A stretch of 64,000 nt of DNA, from the NCBI RefSeq assembly GCF_037031225.1, contig NZ_JAYEZN010000001.1, forward strand, positions 496,001 to 560,000. The letters are read 5' to 3'. The position numbers and the translations under genes were made by a program. The notes under the pieces are model-generated. The model did not search any database, was not told the origin of the DNA, and saw only the letters and a list, made by a program, of their open reading frames with translations. Source of the DNA: Halorientalis sp. LT38 (lineage in GTDB: Archaea > Halobacteriota > Halobacteria > Halobacteriales > Haloarculaceae). This document shows positions 1,474 through 21,420 of this stretch, piece after piece. The number at the start of each line of letters is the position of its first letter. Position 1 is the stretch's first letter.

Positions 1474-2502
1474 TCACTCCGCCTTCGGGAGTTGCACGAC
1501 GAACACCGATCCCTCGGGCTCGTTGTCTTCGACCCACACCGACCCGGAATAGCTCGTGACGAGCGAGTCGACGAGATACAGACCGATCCCGGTTCCCGCG
1601 CTGTTGAGGTTCCGTTCACCCTTTCCGAAAATGGCCTCCTTCTGGTCGTCGGCGACGCCGGGGCCGTTGTCGGCGATCCGTACTGTCACCGTCTCGTCGT
1701 CCTCGGTCACCGAGACGGTTACCTCTGCCATCGGCTTGTCGTTGTGCTGAATGGCGTTTTTCAGCAAGTTCCGAAACACGGAGGCGATCATCTCGTTTGC
1801 CTGCACCCTGACTGCGGGAATTGGCGTCTCACAGGTGATAGCCGCCTCGGAGTACGACGACCGGATTTCGGAGACTTCTTTCTCGAGACGCCGCTGCAGG
1901 TCGATCAGTTGCTCGTCCAGCGTCACCGAGCGCATCACGTCGGCGATCTCCCGTGCCGTGTCCGTGAGTTCGACGGCGTGGTCGGCACTGGTAGCGATCT
2001 TCTCGAGATACTCCGCTTCCTGCGCAGTATCGCAGTTGTCCGCGAGCAGATCGGTGTAGGCAGTCACCAGTTGCAGGTCGTTCCGAACGTCGTGTCGAAG
2101 GACCTGATTCAGGATTTCGAGGTTCTCGAGCTGGTTCTCGAGCCGCCGCTCGTGCTCTTTCTGTTCGCTGATATCCTGGACGTAGGCCACGAAGCGGTCG
2201 TCGTCGAGCGTAGCAGCCTCGATTCGCACCTCGATCACGGTACCGTCTTTCCGGCGAATCGCGCCGTCGGTTCGGATCGCTCCCGCTTCGCTGACGTCGG
2301 TGAACGACGGGAGGTCACCGAAGTCGTCCCCTTCCGGGGCCAGGTCGGTAATCGACATCCCGTGGAGTTCCTCCCGGGAGTAGCCGACCAGTTCACAGGC
2401 GAACGGATTTGCATCCACGTACTCACACTGATCGTCCAGCTCGAAAATGCCGATCGGTGCCCGCTCGAAGTGCGGGCGATACGACAGGTCATCCGGCGTC
2501 AT
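1474..2502 (-). CDS. PAS-domain sensor histidine kinase (342 aa)
   Basis: Soluble two-component kinase with no membrane segment. A single PAS domain spans about residues 12-113, a short coiled linker about 113-130, and the H-box (VLRHDVRND) contains the phospho-acceptor His137. The C-terminal HATPase has an N-box (NLLKNAIQHND) and a G-box (DNGPGV), with GIGLYLV near the end. The start ATG at 2502 leaves 39 bp to the stop of the upstream kinase on the same strand, so both are probably co-transcribed. The PAS domain lacks flavin-binding LOV residues, and its ligand is unknown. No response regulator is adjacent, as is common for orphan haloarchaeal kinases. Confidence 0.92.
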   Translation of the reverse strand: MTPDDLSYRPHFERAPIGIFELDDQCEYVDANPFACELVGYSREELHGMSITDLAPEGDDFGDLPSFTDVSEAGAIRTDGAIRRKDGTVIEVRIEAATLDDDRFVAYVQDISEQKEHERRLENQLENLEILNQVLRHDVRNDLQLVTAYTDLLADNCDTAQEAEYLEKIATSADHAVELTDTAREIADVMRSVTLDEQLIDLQRRLEKEVSEIRSSYSEAAITCETPIPAVRVQANEMIASVFRNLLKNAIQHNDKPMAEVTVSVTEDDETVTVRIADNGPGVADDQKEAIFGKGERNLNSAGTGIGLYLVDSLVTSYSGSVWVEDNEPEGSVFVVQLPKAE

Positions 2503-2541
2503 GTCACTGAATTACTCTATGGGCCCCCACGAAGCAGTGGT

Positions 2542-4293
2542 TTACGGATTCACGTCGCGACTCACACCCGGTAGCTGGAGGGTTACGATACTCCCCCGAG
2601 GGTCGTTGTCGGACACCAGCAGCTCGCCACCGAGTGTCGTCATCACCCACTCCATCAGCCAGAATCCGACGCCGAGACTGTGATTCAGGGGCGCCTCCTC
2701 CCCACGTTCGATCGCGTGCCGTTCGAAGTCCGGAATCCCGGGCCCAGTATCTGCGACCGAGATGCAGAGCATGCTCTCTTCCGGGTCCCGTTGCAGCGAA
2801 ATCGCGATTTCTGGATGGGGCTGCTGGACGTGGACGATCGCGTTATCGACAGCCTCGTCCAGGGCGAGTTCGAGCAGATCCGCGTTCCGAACGTGAATCG
2901 TCCCGTCGTCGTCGATCTGCGCGGTAATCTCCGCGTCCGGGTACCGGGCCTGATACGTCTCGACGAGCGCCTCGATATCGAACCGCTCCCAGGTCTGGTG
3001 GTCTTCGGTCGGGTCCCAGATCGATCGGATGGCCGCCGTCTTCTCGGCGATTTTCAGCATCTTTCTGGCGCCGTCCCGGATCGCTTCGACGGAGGCCTCC
3101 CGTGCGTCCGGTTCCAGCTCCGCGGACTCGAGCACTTCCGCGTGCCCGTCGATCACGTTCAACGTGTTTCGTAAATTGTGTCGCAACACCCGATTGAGCA
3201 CGTTGAGCGTCTGTGTCTTGAGCAGCTTCTGGGTGATGTCCTGTTCGATCGCCACGAACTGCGTGACGGTCCCGTGGCTGTCCGTGACGGGGATGATCTT
3301 CTGTGCGACTTCGAACAGCTCTCCGTGTTTGGTCTGATTCGTCAGTTCGGCCTCCCACACCTCGCCGGCGGTGATCTGCTCCCACAGATGTTCGTAGAAT
3401 TCCTCGTCCTGTTGTCCGGATTTCAGGATGCGGGGCGTCCGTCCGATCGCCTCGTCGGCGGTGTATCCGGTCAACTCCTCGAAGGCGGGATTGACGTACC
3501 TGATCGTCCCATCCGGATCGGTCGTGAAGATGGCCTTGTCGGAACCGTCGGCCTGTTCTTTGAAGAGGGTGAGATCTTGCTCGAATCGCTTTTCGGCGGT
3601 CACGTCCTGCTGGTACCCGAGGTAGTTGGTGACCGCACCCGACTCGGATCGGATCGGGACGATCGTGACCCGATTCCAGAACATCGAGCCGTCTTTGCGA
3701 TAGTTACGGAGTTGGACGGTGACGGCTTCCTCGGCCTCGATCGCGGCTCGCATTCGCGCCACTGGCTCGTCGCGCGTCGACTCGCCCTGTAGAAACCGAC
3801 AGTTCCGGCCGAGGACGCCCTCCCGAGAATAACCGGTGAGTTCGCAAAATCCATCGTTGACGTAGACGAGCGGTTCGTCGGCTCGAGTCGCGTCCGCGAT
3901 CGTGATGCCGATCGGCGCTTCGTCCATCGCTCTCTCGCGGAGCAAACGACCAGTCGTGGAGTCCACTTCGGCGATCGGGAGGACCGAAGTCTGGATTCGC
4001 TGGGCCCCGTCCCACTCGATCAGCGAACTCGTGACGATCACACGCTGGGGCTGGCCGGTACCCATCTGGAGTTCGACTTCGAGGCCGAGTGCGCGCGCCT
4101 CTCCGGTTTCGATTCGCGCCATCTGATCAGAGAGCGCCCCGCTGTACTCGGGCGTCACGAGGTCCGTCAGTGCCAGCCCCAGAACCGCGTCCTGTGATTC
4201 GATCCCGAGCAGTGTACAGAAGGCGGGGTCCGCGTAGACGATTTCGAGGCCGTCGTGAACGACAATCGAATCCATCGTCTCGTCCGATCGCAT
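2542..4293 (-). CDS. LOV/PAS sensor histidine kinase, probable blue-light receptor (583 aa)
   Basis: Predicted soluble kinase with three PAS modules: PAS at about 5-110, a LOV-type PAS at about 125-237, PAS at about 250-357, then H-box His372 (VLRHNLRN) and HATPase at about 465-578 (N484, DTGPGI 515-520, GVGFWL 541-546). The second PAS has the full flavin-binding signature of LOV domains: GRNCRFLQ at 162-169 with the adduct Cys165, Asn197 in NYRKDG, Asn207 in FWN and Gln228 in GYQQDV. LOV domains bind FMN and form a cysteinyl adduct in blue light. The ATG at 4293 was chosen because a longer in-frame extension would run into the oppositely oriented dehydrogenase and has no domain similarity. 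It likely forms a two-gene unit with the next kinase. Confidence 0.92.
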   Translation of the reverse strand: MRSDETMDSIVVHDGLEIVYADPAFCTLLGIESQDAVLGLALTDLVTPEYSGALSDQMARIETGEARALGLEVELQMGTGQPQRVIVTSSLIEWDGAQRIQTSVLPIAEVDSTTGRLLRERAMDEAPIGITIADATRADEPLVYVNDGFCELTGYSREGVLGRNCRFLQGESTRDEPVARMRAAIEAEEAVTVQLRNYRKDGSMFWNRVTIVPIRSESGAVTNYLGYQQDVTAEKRFEQDLTLFKEQADGSDKAIFTTDPDGTIRYVNPAFEELTGYTADEAIGRTPRILKSGQQDEEFYEHLWEQITAGEVWEAELTNQTKHGELFEVAQKIIPVTDSHGTVTQFVAIEQDITQKLLKTQTLNVLNRVLRHNLRNTLNVIDGHAEVLESAELEPDAREASVEAIRDGARKMLKIAEKTAAIRSIWDPTEDHQTWERFDIEALVETYQARYPDAEITAQIDDDGTIHVRNADLLELALDEAVDNAIVHVQQPHPEIAISLQRDPEESMLCISVADTGPGIPDFERHAIERGEEAPLNHSLGVGFWLMEWVMTTLGGELLVSDNDPRGSIVTLQLPGVSRDVNP

Positions 4294-4519: not shown

Positions 4520-5533
4520 ATGCGCGTCGCTGCGTTCAGTGAACTGACCGGCCCGGACGGAGTCTCGATCGTGGACCGACCGACGCCCGAACCCGCACGC
4601 GGAGAGGCGGTCGTCGGCGTCGAGGCGTGCGCGATCAACCGCCACGACCTCTGGATCCTCGAAGGCGATTCGGCGATGGTCGACACGGACGATCTGCCCT
4701 TCGTCAGCGGCCTCGACGTCGCCGGGACCGTCGAGGCGGTCGGCGAGGGTGTCACCGGCGCCGAACCGGGAGACCGCGTGGTGCTCTGCCCGAACGATAC
4801 CTGCGGAACCTGTCGATACTGCCGGGAGGGCCCGGAGAACCTGTGTGAGAACTACTCGCTGTTCCACGGCGGCCTCGCCGACCAGGCCCGCGTGCAGGCC
4901 GACCGCCTCGTCGCGCTCCCCGAGGACGTGGGGACGGTCGAGGCCGCTGCGCTGCCGACGGCCTACATGACCGCCTGGCACATGCTCCGCAGGATCGACG
5001 CCGCAGCCGGCGACGTGGTATGTATCCCGGGCGTGACCGGCGGCGTCGGCGTCGCGGGCGTGCAACTCGCGACCACGCTCGGCGCCCACAGCGTGGGGAC
5101 GTCGTCCGCCCGCGCGAAACTCGATCGCGTCGAGTCGCTGGGCCTCGACCACGCGATCGAGAGCACCGACCCGGACGAGATACGATCCCAGGTCGCCGAC
5201 GTCGGGCCGGTCGACGGCGTGCTCAACCACCTCGGGGGCGAGTACACCCAGCTGGGGCTCGACGTCCTGCGACGCGACGGCCGGATGGCGGTCTGTGGGC
5301 GGACCGCGGGGCAGACATCCGAGATCGACATTCCCGACCTCTTCCTGGGCCACAAACGCGTCATCGGGAGCACGATGGGGACGCAGGCCGACCTCGAACG
5401 GATCGTCGGGTTCGTCGCCGACGGCGCGTTCACCCCGGAGATCGACGTGACCTACCCGCTCGCGGAGACCGGTGCGGCGTTCGCGGCGATGCAGGACCGC
5501 GAGAGCGTCGGGAAGCTCGTCGTCACGCCCTAG
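4520..5533 (+). CDS. medium-chain dehydrogenase/reductase, quinone-oxidoreductase-like (337 aa)
   Basis: Zinc-type MDR family oxidoreductase. Four cysteines at 95, 98, 101 and 109 form the structural zinc lobe. Cys37 (EACAINRHD) is at the first catalytic-zinc position, but the usual GHE histidine is replaced (SGLDVAG, about 63-69). Catalytic zinc binding is therefore doubtful, and the protein may act more like a quinone oxidoreductase or enoyl reductase. The NAD(P)-binding glycine motif GVTGGVGVAGVQ is at about 171-182. The ATG at 4520 was preferred over an in-frame TTG four codons upstream. It is divergent from the LOV kinase and convergent with the SDR gene. The substrate is not predictable. 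Confidence 0.88.
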   Translation: MRVAAFSELTGPDGVSIVDRPTPEPARGEAVVGVEACAINRHDLWILEGDSAMVDTDDLPFVSGLDVAGTVEAVGEGVTGAEPGDRVVLCPNDTCGTCRYCREGPENLCENYSLFHGGLADQARVQADRLVALPEDVGTVEAAALPTAYMTAWHMLRRIDAAAGDVVCIPGVTGGVGVAGVQLATTLGAHSVGTSSARAKLDRVESLGLDHAIESTDPDEIRSQVADVGPVDGVLNHLGGEYTQLGLDVLRRDGRMAVCGRTAGQTSEIDIPDLFLGHKRVIGSTMGTQADLERIVGFVADGAFTPEIDVTYPLAETGAAFAAMQDRESVGKLVVTP

Positions 5534-10225: not shown

Positions 10226-10987
10226 TCACTGCTCGAGGACGCCGTAGGTCGACTCGAGGTAGTCGACGATCCAGTCCACAGTATCGGGGTCGTAGGTCCA
10301 GAACCCGTAGAATTCGCGCGGTTCGCGCTCCTCGGCGACCAGCGCGCACTTCGCGTCGTCGGCGTCGCGGTCGCCGGCCTCGTCGATCCCCCCAGTCGTC
10401 GCGGACGCGCCGCCGTCGAACACGACGAACCAGCAGCGTTCGATCTCCTGCGCCCGTTCGAGGTGCAAGGTGAAGCCACCGGTGGCCGGCGGGTCCTCGT
10501 CCGGCGTGGCGTAGGCGTGGACGTCGAGGTTCTTCGAGGCCAGGCGCTCGTACACCGAGAGCTCGCCGCGCAGCGTCGAGAGGTACTGAAAGCCCGCGTG
10601 GAGCGATCCATCGCCGACGCGCCAGGCGCGGTCCTCGATCTCCCGGGAGGCGGCGACCATCTGGTCGATGCTCCAGGAGGTGAACATGGTCTCGTCCAGA
10701 TGGTCCAGGATCGGCCGGTAGGGGCTGTCCGAGAGGCCGATCGTGCCGTGTTCGTCGGCCATCATCCGTTCGAGGTCGGTGATGCTCGTGGCCGTCACCA
10801 CCTCGCCGTCCTCGCTGAGGGTGACGAACTCGCCGGGCTTGCCGCTGGGCGTCGACTCCCGCTCGACCGTCACGTTCCGGTCCGCGAACCGCTCGCGAAA
10901 CGCCGCGACCACGTCCGAGTCCGCGTTGAAGACCGTCAGCGTCTTCTCGTAGTCCTCGACCCCGGCGATGAGTTCCGAGAGGGACAT
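10226..10987 (-). CDS. DICT-domain sensory protein (253 aa)
   Basis: Soluble protein starting MSLSELI. It resembles the DICT sensory domain family that in haloarchaea and cyanobacteria occurs alone or attached to kinases and cyclases. Residues about 15-200 show the alternating hydrophobic pattern of that domain. The conserved-looking blocks LTVFNADSDVV and MFTSWSIDQMVAASREIE can be seen. No transmembrane helix, catalytic motif or DNA-binding segment is visible. The gene stands alone between the ABC operon and the divergent korA. Light or redox sensing has been suggested for DICT proteins, but the ligand is unknown here. The domain identification rests on my memory of the family. Confidence 0.75.
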   Translation of the reverse strand: MSLSELIAGVEDYEKTLTVFNADSDVVAAFRERFADRNVTVERESTPSGKPGEFVTLSEDGEVVTATSITDLERMMADEHGTIGLSDSPYRPILDHLDETMFTSWSIDQMVAASREIEDRAWRVGDGSLHAGFQYLSTLRGELSVYERLASKNLDVHAYATPDEDPPATGGFTLHLERAQEIERCWFVVFDGGASATTGGIDEAGDRDADDAKCALVAEEREPREFYGFWTYDPDTVDWIVDYLESTYGVLEQ

Positions 10988-18892: not shown

Positions 18893-19047
18893 CCGTGGCC
18901 TCGCCAACGTCCTCGAGGAACTGAAGGATCCAGTACATTGATGCTCGCAGTCCGCCTTCCGGAAGACGTGAGCGAACGAACGTCCCGGATGGTGACGCGG
19001 CGGCCCCCGGAGTCGTGCGCCGCCTCGCCCGCGCCGCCGGGATAGCC

Positions 19048-21420
19048 ATGGCCGGGAGCCTCGCGGTGCGCGTCGTCGCCGACGGGACCGAGACGTCCGA
19101 GTCCGTCCTGGACGCGCTGGCCACCGTCTACGAGCGGGTCGATCCCGCCGACGGTGACACAGGTGACGACTCGACGGTCGACTGCGTCGTGGCTGTCGCC
19201 CCGCTCGCCGACGCGGCGTGGCAGCGACTCGCCGACCGAGGCGACGCGCCGCTGGTCGTCCTCGCCTCCCCCGCAGACTCGGAGAGCCGTCACCGGGCGA
19301 CCGAAGCGGGGGCGACCGACGTGGTTATCGCGGACCACGACCGGTTCGCGGCCCTCGCACACAGGGTCCGTGGAGTGGTGGAGGGTCGTCGGTCCGCAAC
19401 GGGCCAGGGGCCGAGAGCCCTCGAGAGCGAGGCCGAGGAGCGGGCTGCCGACGGCCGCTACCTCCGGGACCTCTACGACGTGGCGACCGACGACGCCCTG
19501 TCCTTCGAGGCGAAGACCGAGCGCATCCTCGAGATCGGGCTGGATCGGCTGGGCGTGGAGAACGCCCACCTCTCGTCGATCGATCGCCGGCCCGAGCGCT
19601 ACGAGGTCGTCGCGAGCGTCGGCGACCTCCCGATCGAACCCGGCGTCCAGCTCGACCTGGCGACGACGTTCTGCAAGCGGACGATCCAGTCGGACGACGT
19701 GCTGGCGATCGATCACGCCGCCGAGCGGGGCTGGCGCGGCGATCCGGCCTACGAGGAAAACGACGTCGAGTGTTACCTCGGGGCGCGCGTCACCGTCGGC
19801 GGGTCGCTGTACGGCACCGTCTGCTTCATGGACCGGTCGCCGCGGCCCCCGTTCACCGAGGCCGAGCGGGCGTTCGTCAGCCTGGTCGCGCGGTGGCTCA
19901 GTCACGAACTCGAACGGCGGCGCCGTGAGACCGCGGTCGACGCGCTCCACGACGGGACCGCTCGCCTCCTGCGCGCCAAGACGACGGGGTCGGTCTGCGA
20001 GACGGCGACGGAAGTAGCCGCGGCGGTGCTCGACGCGCCGCGGACCCGCGTCTGGCTCGTCGACGACGACCCGGGGACGCGACTCCGCGCGGCGGCCGAT
20101 CACGCCTGCGAGGCCGATGCAGACCCGATCGAGCGCGGCGACGGCCGCGGCGACGCGCTCTGGGAGGCGCTGGACGACGGCGCGACCCGGCGGTCCGACG
20201 ATCCCGAGGGCGTGGACGGCACCGGGTTCGCGGAGCGGACGCGGAGCGCGCTCGTCACGCCGCTCGGGACCGACGGGGTTCTGATCGCGGGCTCCCCGAC
20301 CGCAGACGCGTTCGACGACGTCGACGACGTGATGGCCGGCATGGTCGGCTCGAACGTCGTTGCGGCGCTGGAACGGATCGACTGGATCGATCAGGTCAGG
20401 GACGCCCGCGAACGGTTCCAGCGCATCTTCGAGTCGGCCAGCGACGGCCTCCTCCTCGTCGACCCTGCGGCCGACGAGATCGCCGACTGCAACGACCGCC
20501 TCTGTGAGCTGCTCGGCTTCGACCGGGCGGAACTGCGAACGGTCGCGCCCTCGACGATCTGCCGGGACGACATCGAGGCGTTCAGACGGTTGCTCGTCCG
20601 GGCGCGGGAGGAAGGACGGGCGGGGGCGGACGAGCTGGTCTGTCGCGACCGGGGCGGCGGCCGCATCCCGGTGGCGGTGTCGGCGGCGGCGGTGGAACTC
20701 GACGGGCGCGACTACGTCCTCGCGAGCGTGCGCGACATCCGGGACCGCCTGCACCGCGAGCAGGCGCTGAGCGTCTTCAACCGCGTTCTCCGGCACAACA
20801 TCCGCAACGACATGAACGTCGTCATCGGGCGAGCCACGATGCTCCGGGGGGCGCTCGATGGGGCCGATCAGCGGGCCCACCTCGACCACATCGTCGAGAC
20901 CGCGCGGAAGCTGACGGAACTGGGGGAGAAGGCCAGGACCTTCAGGCGACTGGACGACCGAGAGCCAGAGGCCGACAGCGTCGCAGTGGGCGGGTTACTC
21001 GAACGCGTCCGGGAGTCGCTGGTCGGGGAGTACCCCGACGCCACCGTCACGATCCGGGGCGCGGACGACGCCACGGCGGCGGTCGCGCCAACGATCGACG
21101 TGGCCATGCGCGAGCTGCTGGAGAACGCGATCAAGCACGCGACCACCGACGACCCAGCGGTCACGGTGACGGTCGCCCGTGACGAAGACGGTGTGTCGGT
21201 CCGCGTCGCCGACGAAGGCCCCGGGCTCCCGGAGCAGGATCGTGCCGTGCTGGAAGGGGGCTACGAGACGCCGCTGAATCACGGGAGCGGGCTGGGGCTG
21301 TGGCTTGCCAACTGGGTCGTCACCGCGGCCGGCGGGTCTATCGCCGTGGTCGACGCGGGACCCGAGGGCACGACGATCGAGCTGTCGCTCCCGGCCGCCA
21401 CCGGCGCCGCCGAACCGTGA
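19048..21420 (+). CDS. GAF-GAF-PAS sensor histidine kinase (790 aa)
   Basis: Soluble multi-domain kinase. The N-terminal region (about 1-112) looks like a degenerate receiver-type fold without an obvious phospho-acceptor motif. GAF domain 1 spans about 150-290, a GAF-like domain about 295-445, PAS about 452-567, the H-box VLRHNIRND contains His583, and the HATPase covers about 650-782 (N693, DEGPGL 722-727, GSGLGLWL). The kinase core is close to that of the LOV kinase, including the PLNH/GLWL blocks. ATG 19048 was chosen. A GTG eleven codons upstream is also in frame. No partner regulator is adjacent. The ligands are unknown. Confidence 0.9.
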   Translation: MAGSLAVRVVADGTETSESVLDALATVYERVDPADGDTGDDSTVDCVVAVAPLADAAWQRLADRGDAPLVVLASPADSESRHRATEAGATDVVIADHDRFAALAHRVRGVVEGRRSATGQGPRALESEAEERAADGRYLRDLYDVATDDALSFEAKTERILEIGLDRLGVENAHLSSIDRRPERYEVVASVGDLPIEPGVQLDLATTFCKRTIQSDDVLAIDHAAERGWRGDPAYEENDVECYLGARVTVGGSLYGTVCFMDRSPRPPFTEAERAFVSLVARWLSHELERRRRETAVDALHDGTARLLRAKTTGSVCETATEVAAAVLDAPRTRVWLVDDDPGTRLRAAADHACEADADPIERGDGRGDALWEALDDGATRRSDDPEGVDGTGFAERTRSALVTPLGTDGVLIAGSPTADAFDDVDDVMAGMVGSNVVAALERIDWIDQVRDARERFQRIFESASDGLLLVDPAADEIADCNDRLCELLGFDRAELRTVAPSTICRDDIEAFRRLLVRAREEGRAGADELVCRDRGGGRIPVAVSAAAVELDGRDYVLASVRDIRDRLHREQALSVFNRVLRHNIRNDMNVVIGRATMLRGALDGADQRAHLDHIVETARKLTELGEKARTFRRLDDREPEADSVAVGGLLERVRESLVGEYPDATVTIRGADDATAAVAPTIDVAMRELLENAIKHATTDDPAVTVTVARDEDGVSVRVADEGPGLPEQDRAVLEGGYETPLNHGSGLGLWLANWVVTAAGGSIAVVDAGPEGTTIELSLPAATGAAEP

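Follow-up and report, generated by a model that had tools for sequence, protein, structure and literature searches.

Gene and Domain Architecture

The window analyzed here, a stretch of 64,000 nucleotides from Halorientalis sp. LT38, contains a gene (2542–4293, minus strand) that most likely codes for a soluble haloarchaeal blue-light LOV histidine kinase. We assign a probability of about 0.85 to this reading, according to which the second PAS domain of the protein is a true LOV domain. Residues ~120–240 form a LOV-clade domain by sequence, by phylogeny, and by predicted structure. From these data we infer FMN binding, photochemistry, and light control of the kinase, and what can be said about the sign of this effect and about the target of the kinase is conditional in the same way. 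A preliminary description of the same DNA had arrived at this core reading, which is now supported by profile matches, a domain tree, a structural model, and the sequence boxes of the kinase. The reading is correct, and the kinase is of an ordinary kind that is already known and common in haloarchaea. What is new relative to the earlier description is the kinship of the third PAS domain with FAD-type PAS domains, the fixed length of two linkers, and a probable horizontal origin of the gene. The possible pairing of light and redox sensing is the part worth testing.

The coding sequence runs on the minus strand from an ATG at 4293 to position 2542 and specifies 583 residues followed by a stop codon. 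The plus strand contains four stops between 2542 and 4293 and was ruled out as the coding strand. Translation of the minus strand confirmed the kinase and the four residues that had been named for it, Cys165, Asn197 (NYRKDG), Asn207 (FWN), and Gln228 (GYQQD). Taken mechanically, the open reading frame extends upstream to a GTG at 4755, corresponding to a protein of 737 residues, but this start was dropped. The ATG at 4293 is preferred because it is preceded by a T-rich TATA-like stretch (tttttaag) about 20 bases ahead and because the alignment of close relatives opens at the same methionine.

The predicted soluble product has the domain order PAS1-LOV-PAS3-histidine kinase. Pfam recognizes three PAS domains and HATPase_c (E = 3.9e-13), with HisKA slightly under the cut-off (22.5 bits vs 26.9). 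In an AlphaFold2 model built on an alignment of 30 sequences the domains are well formed (mean pLDDT 79), with helices 232–249 and 354–388 connecting them; with a pTM of 0.52 the mutual arrangement of these domains is unreliable. PAS1 (residues ~1–109; 3967–4293, minus strand), as delimited by translation and model, is a sensor domain for which a sequence search of solved structures returned no match.

The LOV Domain

Residues 120–240 (3574–3936, minus strand) match YtvA-type LOV structures with E ~1e-31. Nearly all of the best PDB matches are LOV proteins, and YtvA (4gcz) is among the best solved relatives, so that the profile search proposed in the preliminary description puts this domain on the LOV side. 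The NCBIfam models for YtvA and LOV-HK also match the region; their scores stay under the cut-offs set for whole proteins, which a different architecture leads one to expect. The phylogeny, also proposed earlier, places the domain inside the LOV clade. A single branch (SH-aLRT 96) splits 37 LOV domains from the rows of PAS3 and MmoS FAD-type PAS domains, and within the LOV clade the window domain falls in a 16-member set of LOVs from haloarchaea (support 95), apart from PAS3. The modeled domain superimposes on LOV crystal structures with Z ~20 and an rmsd of 0.6–0.8 Å. It also matches the non-LOV PAS domain of EAG1 with Z 19. Therefore, the fold alone is no proof of a LOV domain, and it is the pocket residues that carry the assignment.

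These residues are all in place. The motif GRNCRFLQ on Eα conforms to the pattern GxNCRFLQ and contains the adduct-forming Cys165, which is encoded together with the flavin-phosphate arginine Arg166 at 3796–3801 (minus strand). The FMN ligands Arg166, Gln169, Arg182, Asn197, and Asn207 and the signaling Gln228 on Iβ complete the set. We take Cys165, Arg166, Gln169, Arg182, Asn197, Asn207, and Gln228 to be equivalent to Cys450, Arg451, Gln454, Arg467, Asn482, Asn492, and Gln513 of AsLOV2; in the alignment with YtvA from the sequence search the photochemical residues also match one to one. Among 44 aligned full-length or near-full-length sequences (identity ~41–68%), Cys165, Arg166, Gln169, Arg182, and Gln228 are kept in 43. 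The earlier statement that the domain has every residue needed for FMN binding and photochemistry thus holds for the photochemical residues, but not for five pocket positions, which are non-canonical. Compared with the presumed AsLOV2 counterparts, Thr418 is replaced by Ala133, Asn425 by Glu140, Val416 by Thr131, Phe494 by Val209, and Phe509 by Tyr224. All five replacements are usual among the haloarchaeal relatives.

The window LOV domain carries Thr, Leu, and Met at AsLOV2 positions 416, 427, and 466 (Thr131, Leu142, and Met181), and Thr or Ser at position 416 is near-universal in the relatives. The V416T exchange alone makes recovery of AsLOV2 21-fold faster, and the N425S/I427L/I466M variant is fast as well (PMC3867380). 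By analogy, the three residues suggest fast dark recovery, which is a guess. Counter to this guess, slow cycling was reported for the haloarchaeal domain ALovD-1 (PMC12202551). Context therefore matters for the recovery rate.

The Third PAS Domain

PAS3 (residues 243–357; 3223–3567, minus strand) resembles a different class of flavoproteins. Its closest match is the FAD redox sensor MmoS (3ewk, E = 3e-27), NifL (2gj3) and Aer (8dik) were also matched, and the tree places PAS3 with MmoS. The likeness to these three extends from sequence and fold to a tryptophan in the Fα helix (Trp304 in helix 297–308, conserved in all 43 sequences with a letter at this position) and an asparagine in Gβ (Asn319, conserved in 44 of 44). 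Trp304 and Asn319 are the counterparts of Arg182 and Asn197 in the LOV domain. The reported FAD determinants of PAS domains are a Trp in Fα and a second residue, either Asn, as in clusters 4 and 14, or His, as in clusters 9 and 14 (PMC10468136). As second residue PAS3 has the Asn and not the His, and this Trp/Asn pair is a correlate of FAD binding only. Where MmoS and Aer have a His in the flavin pocket, PAS3 has Pro. Compared with LOV, PAS3 has Pro at the Cys position and Glu at the Gln position, in agreement with the earlier remark that the flanking PAS domains lack the cysteine motif. On these grounds, we see roughly even odds that PAS3 binds FAD as a redox sensor of the NifL/MmoS type.

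A crude motif for LOV combined with a FAD-type PAS domain occurs in 36 of 40 haloarchaeal relatives vs none of 18 bacterial LOV matches, which is a hint only, given small samples picked by similarity. Tentatively, and with less confidence than in FAD binding itself, we propose a haloarchaeal kinase family in which an FMN-containing LOV domain and a FAD-containing redox PAS domain, set in series with a fixed-length helix between them, would act as a light-and-redox coincidence detector, some members having kept the redox half and lost the light half. If PAS3 does bind FAD, nature would have made logic gates for light plus redox in these kinases, and ones working in molar KCl.

Signal Transfer and Function

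The kinase module (DHp and HATPase_c; 2545–3222, minus strand) was identified from translation, Pfam, and conservation. The H-box LNRVLRHN contains the phospho-acceptor His372, which is present in all 44 aligned sequences, and the HATPase_c boxes are represented by Asn484, Asp515/Gly517 (DxG), and Gly541/Gly543 (GxG). The distance from LOV Asp230 to PAS3 Asp259 is 29 residues in 44 of 44 sequences, and the distance from the end of PAS3 to His372 is likewise constant in all of them. The distances between PAS1 and LOV and between His and the N-box vary. Fixed LOV-PAS3 and PAS3-His372 linkers are what mechanical signal transfer through a helical register requires.

We surmise that blue light would induce a covalent adduct between FMN and Cys165, and that protonation of flavin N5 would cause Gln228 on Iβ to rearrange. 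This change could pass through the fixed-length post-LOV helix into PAS3 and from there through the second fixed-length helix to the DHp helix with His372. Autophosphorylation, and with it phosphotransfer to a response regulator, would be altered. With PAS3 as a FAD sensor between LOV and kinase, the output would merge light with the cellular redox or oxygen state.

The FAD-type character of PAS3 also speaks for another function, in which the LOV domain binds flavin but serves in vivo chiefly to sense redox state or flavin level, so that both flavin domains would serve a kinase that responds to redox state or oxygen. Two related proteins point in the same direction. A relative with 59% identity (L115; G142:C3:392364–394073) has an eroded LOV pocket (C165Y, R166Q, Q169Y, R182Q, and Q228H) and keeps PAS3, including its Asn, and the kinase intact; light sensing is therefore dispensable for some members of the family. 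The second LOV-like kinase in the same genome (GAF-PAS-LOV-HK, 706-codon frame; C1:1437031–1437399, corresponding to L003:1501–1869) reads GRNLRLLQ, with Cys replaced by Leu and the other FMN ligands kept, and LOV domains devoid of the cysteine can still signal through flavin photoreduction (PMC4682037). On the other hand, Cys165 is conserved in 43 of 44 sequences with identities of ~41–68%, and a selective pressure on redox sensing by itself would not call for this cysteine. We consider a predominantly redox-sensing role improbable. Far harder to defend is the idea that the domain is an ordinary PAS domain that has its cysteine by chance and lacks flavin chemistry. PAS kinases are indeed numerous in this genome (54 matching places), and the similarity to EAG1 counts for this idea, but the joint occurrence of all photochemical residues and the highly supported placement in the LOV clade leave it hardly any room. 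A blue-light LOV kinase is the reading that we retain, and the Cys-less and pocket-less relatives are ready-made natural controls for it.

Genomic Context

A second PAS-histidine kinase of 342 residues (1474–2502, minus strand), identified from the open reading frame list and by Pfam, starts 39 bp downstream of the LOV kinase gene. The two genes are probably co-transcribed, and a role of the second protein as a partner is only putative. That the two kinases work as a unit, for example by forming a heterodimer or by sharing a regulator, is unlikely in our view, if somewhat less so than a mainly redox-sensing role. The shared strand, the short gap, and a base composition that makes the pair jointly the lowest-GC stretch of the window favor this idea, as does one relative (L033) with a PAS kinase directly after its LOV kinase. 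Yet the neighbor in L033 is only 41% identical and has a different PAS domain, the other relatives lack a PAS kinase neighbor, which leaves L033 as the sole one with this layout, and the genes of the family that are closely homologous to the 1474–2502 kinase are not neighbors of LOV kinase homologues.

The LOV kinase itself is probably a horizontally moving accessory gene. Three observations fit this view. The two-kinase segment (1474–4293) has a GC content of 61.2%, the lowest of 306 segments of the same length (mean 68.5 ± 2.1%). The nearest full-length relatives (59–68% identity) come from Natronosalvus, Natronorubrum (plasmid), Natronomonas, a Natrialbaceae MAG, Halorubrum, Halalkalirubrum, and others; most of these near relatives lie outside the genus and some on plasmids, while relatives within the genus reach only ~41% (L129 and L130). 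Finally, families are intermixed in the kinase tree. By their match figures, L031 and L114, L042 and L116, and L048 and L131 are pairwise the same proteins, which makes the family one that includes Natronomonas, Halomicroarcula, and Salinibaculum, taken here as Haloarculaceae. A clean empty site for the two-kinase cassette was sought in genomes of the genus and not found. The genes flanking the cassette (an AMP-binding enzyme and ADH) are kept in the genus and lie far apart where they share a contig (e.g., G080 and G075). Across 20 relatives no conserved operon or neighbor of the LOV kinase emerged, the exceptions being L033 with its PAS kinase and two pairs of close genomes (L036/L044 and L038/L039) with shared flanks.

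No response regulator adjoins the LOV kinase at this locus. A DICT-domain protein is encoded ~6 kb away (10229–10987, minus strand); DICT domains putatively have a sensory function in two-component and diguanylate systems. A large multidomain histidine kinase, which looks like GAF-GAF-PAS-HK, occupies 19015–21420 (plus strand), and its kinase part is 37% identical to the LOV kinase. Elsewhere, the genome contains three microbial rhodopsin genes (C1:1865690, C1:3308977, and C1:3258127; L111–L113). Input from a LOV domain would therefore add to retinal-based light use or sensing, as the preliminary description had anticipated.

Occurrence and Related Systems

The same description called LOV kinases rare in archaea, which is wrong at least for haloarchaea. 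The strict GxNCRFLQ motif is present in 113 of 146 genomes and in 21 of 22 genera of the family to which the window belongs; a reversed-pattern control was almost empty. Haloarchaeal light biology has been read almost wholly through rhodopsins, though LOV motifs are present in most genomes of this family. According to a survey from 2014, 167 archaeal LOV proteins had been cataloged, many of them kinases, and those from Halobacteria are, as here, joined only to PAS, GAF, or response regulator units and a histidine kinase (PMC4844311). The survey gives no individual functions, and the section consulted does not mention a conserved pairing of LOV with a FAD-type PAS domain.

One such protein has been measured. 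ALovD-1 belongs to a Halonotius histidine kinase (Ga0151614_185661/WP_120100563), where it is the middle one of three PAS domains, and photocycles in up to 3 M salt, as reported in 2025 (PMC12202551). The Halonotius protein shares with the window kinase the three-PAS layout, the LOV domain in second position, and a GxNCR-type motif. Tyr224 of the window domain, where other LOVs carry Phe, corresponds to the Trp/Tyr hallmark described in that study. Differences include a Tyr in ALovD-1 at the position of Phe167, a length of 726 residues vs 583, and a third PAS domain that the available text does not describe as FAD-type. In its available portions, the cited literature names a target for none of the archaeal LOV kinases.

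The Brucella LOV-HK (6ph4) and Erythrobacter EL346 (4r3a) were both matched in the structure search and share the LOV(-PAS)-kinase layout. These two are HWE-type kinases, whereas the window protein has a haloarchaeal kinase with an RHN H-box, an extra N-terminal PAS domain, and the FAD-type PAS3. The closest named LOV domain by sequence is that of B. subtilis YtvA, which shares all photochemical residues; its output domain is STAS and not a kinase. As a side observation, a canonical LOV motif (GKNCRFLQ) was found in a MAG assigned to Woesearchaeota (DPANN; L069:6001–6399), where it may stem from contamination. This lineage lies outside the two archaeal classes listed for LOV in the 2014 survey (PMC4844311).
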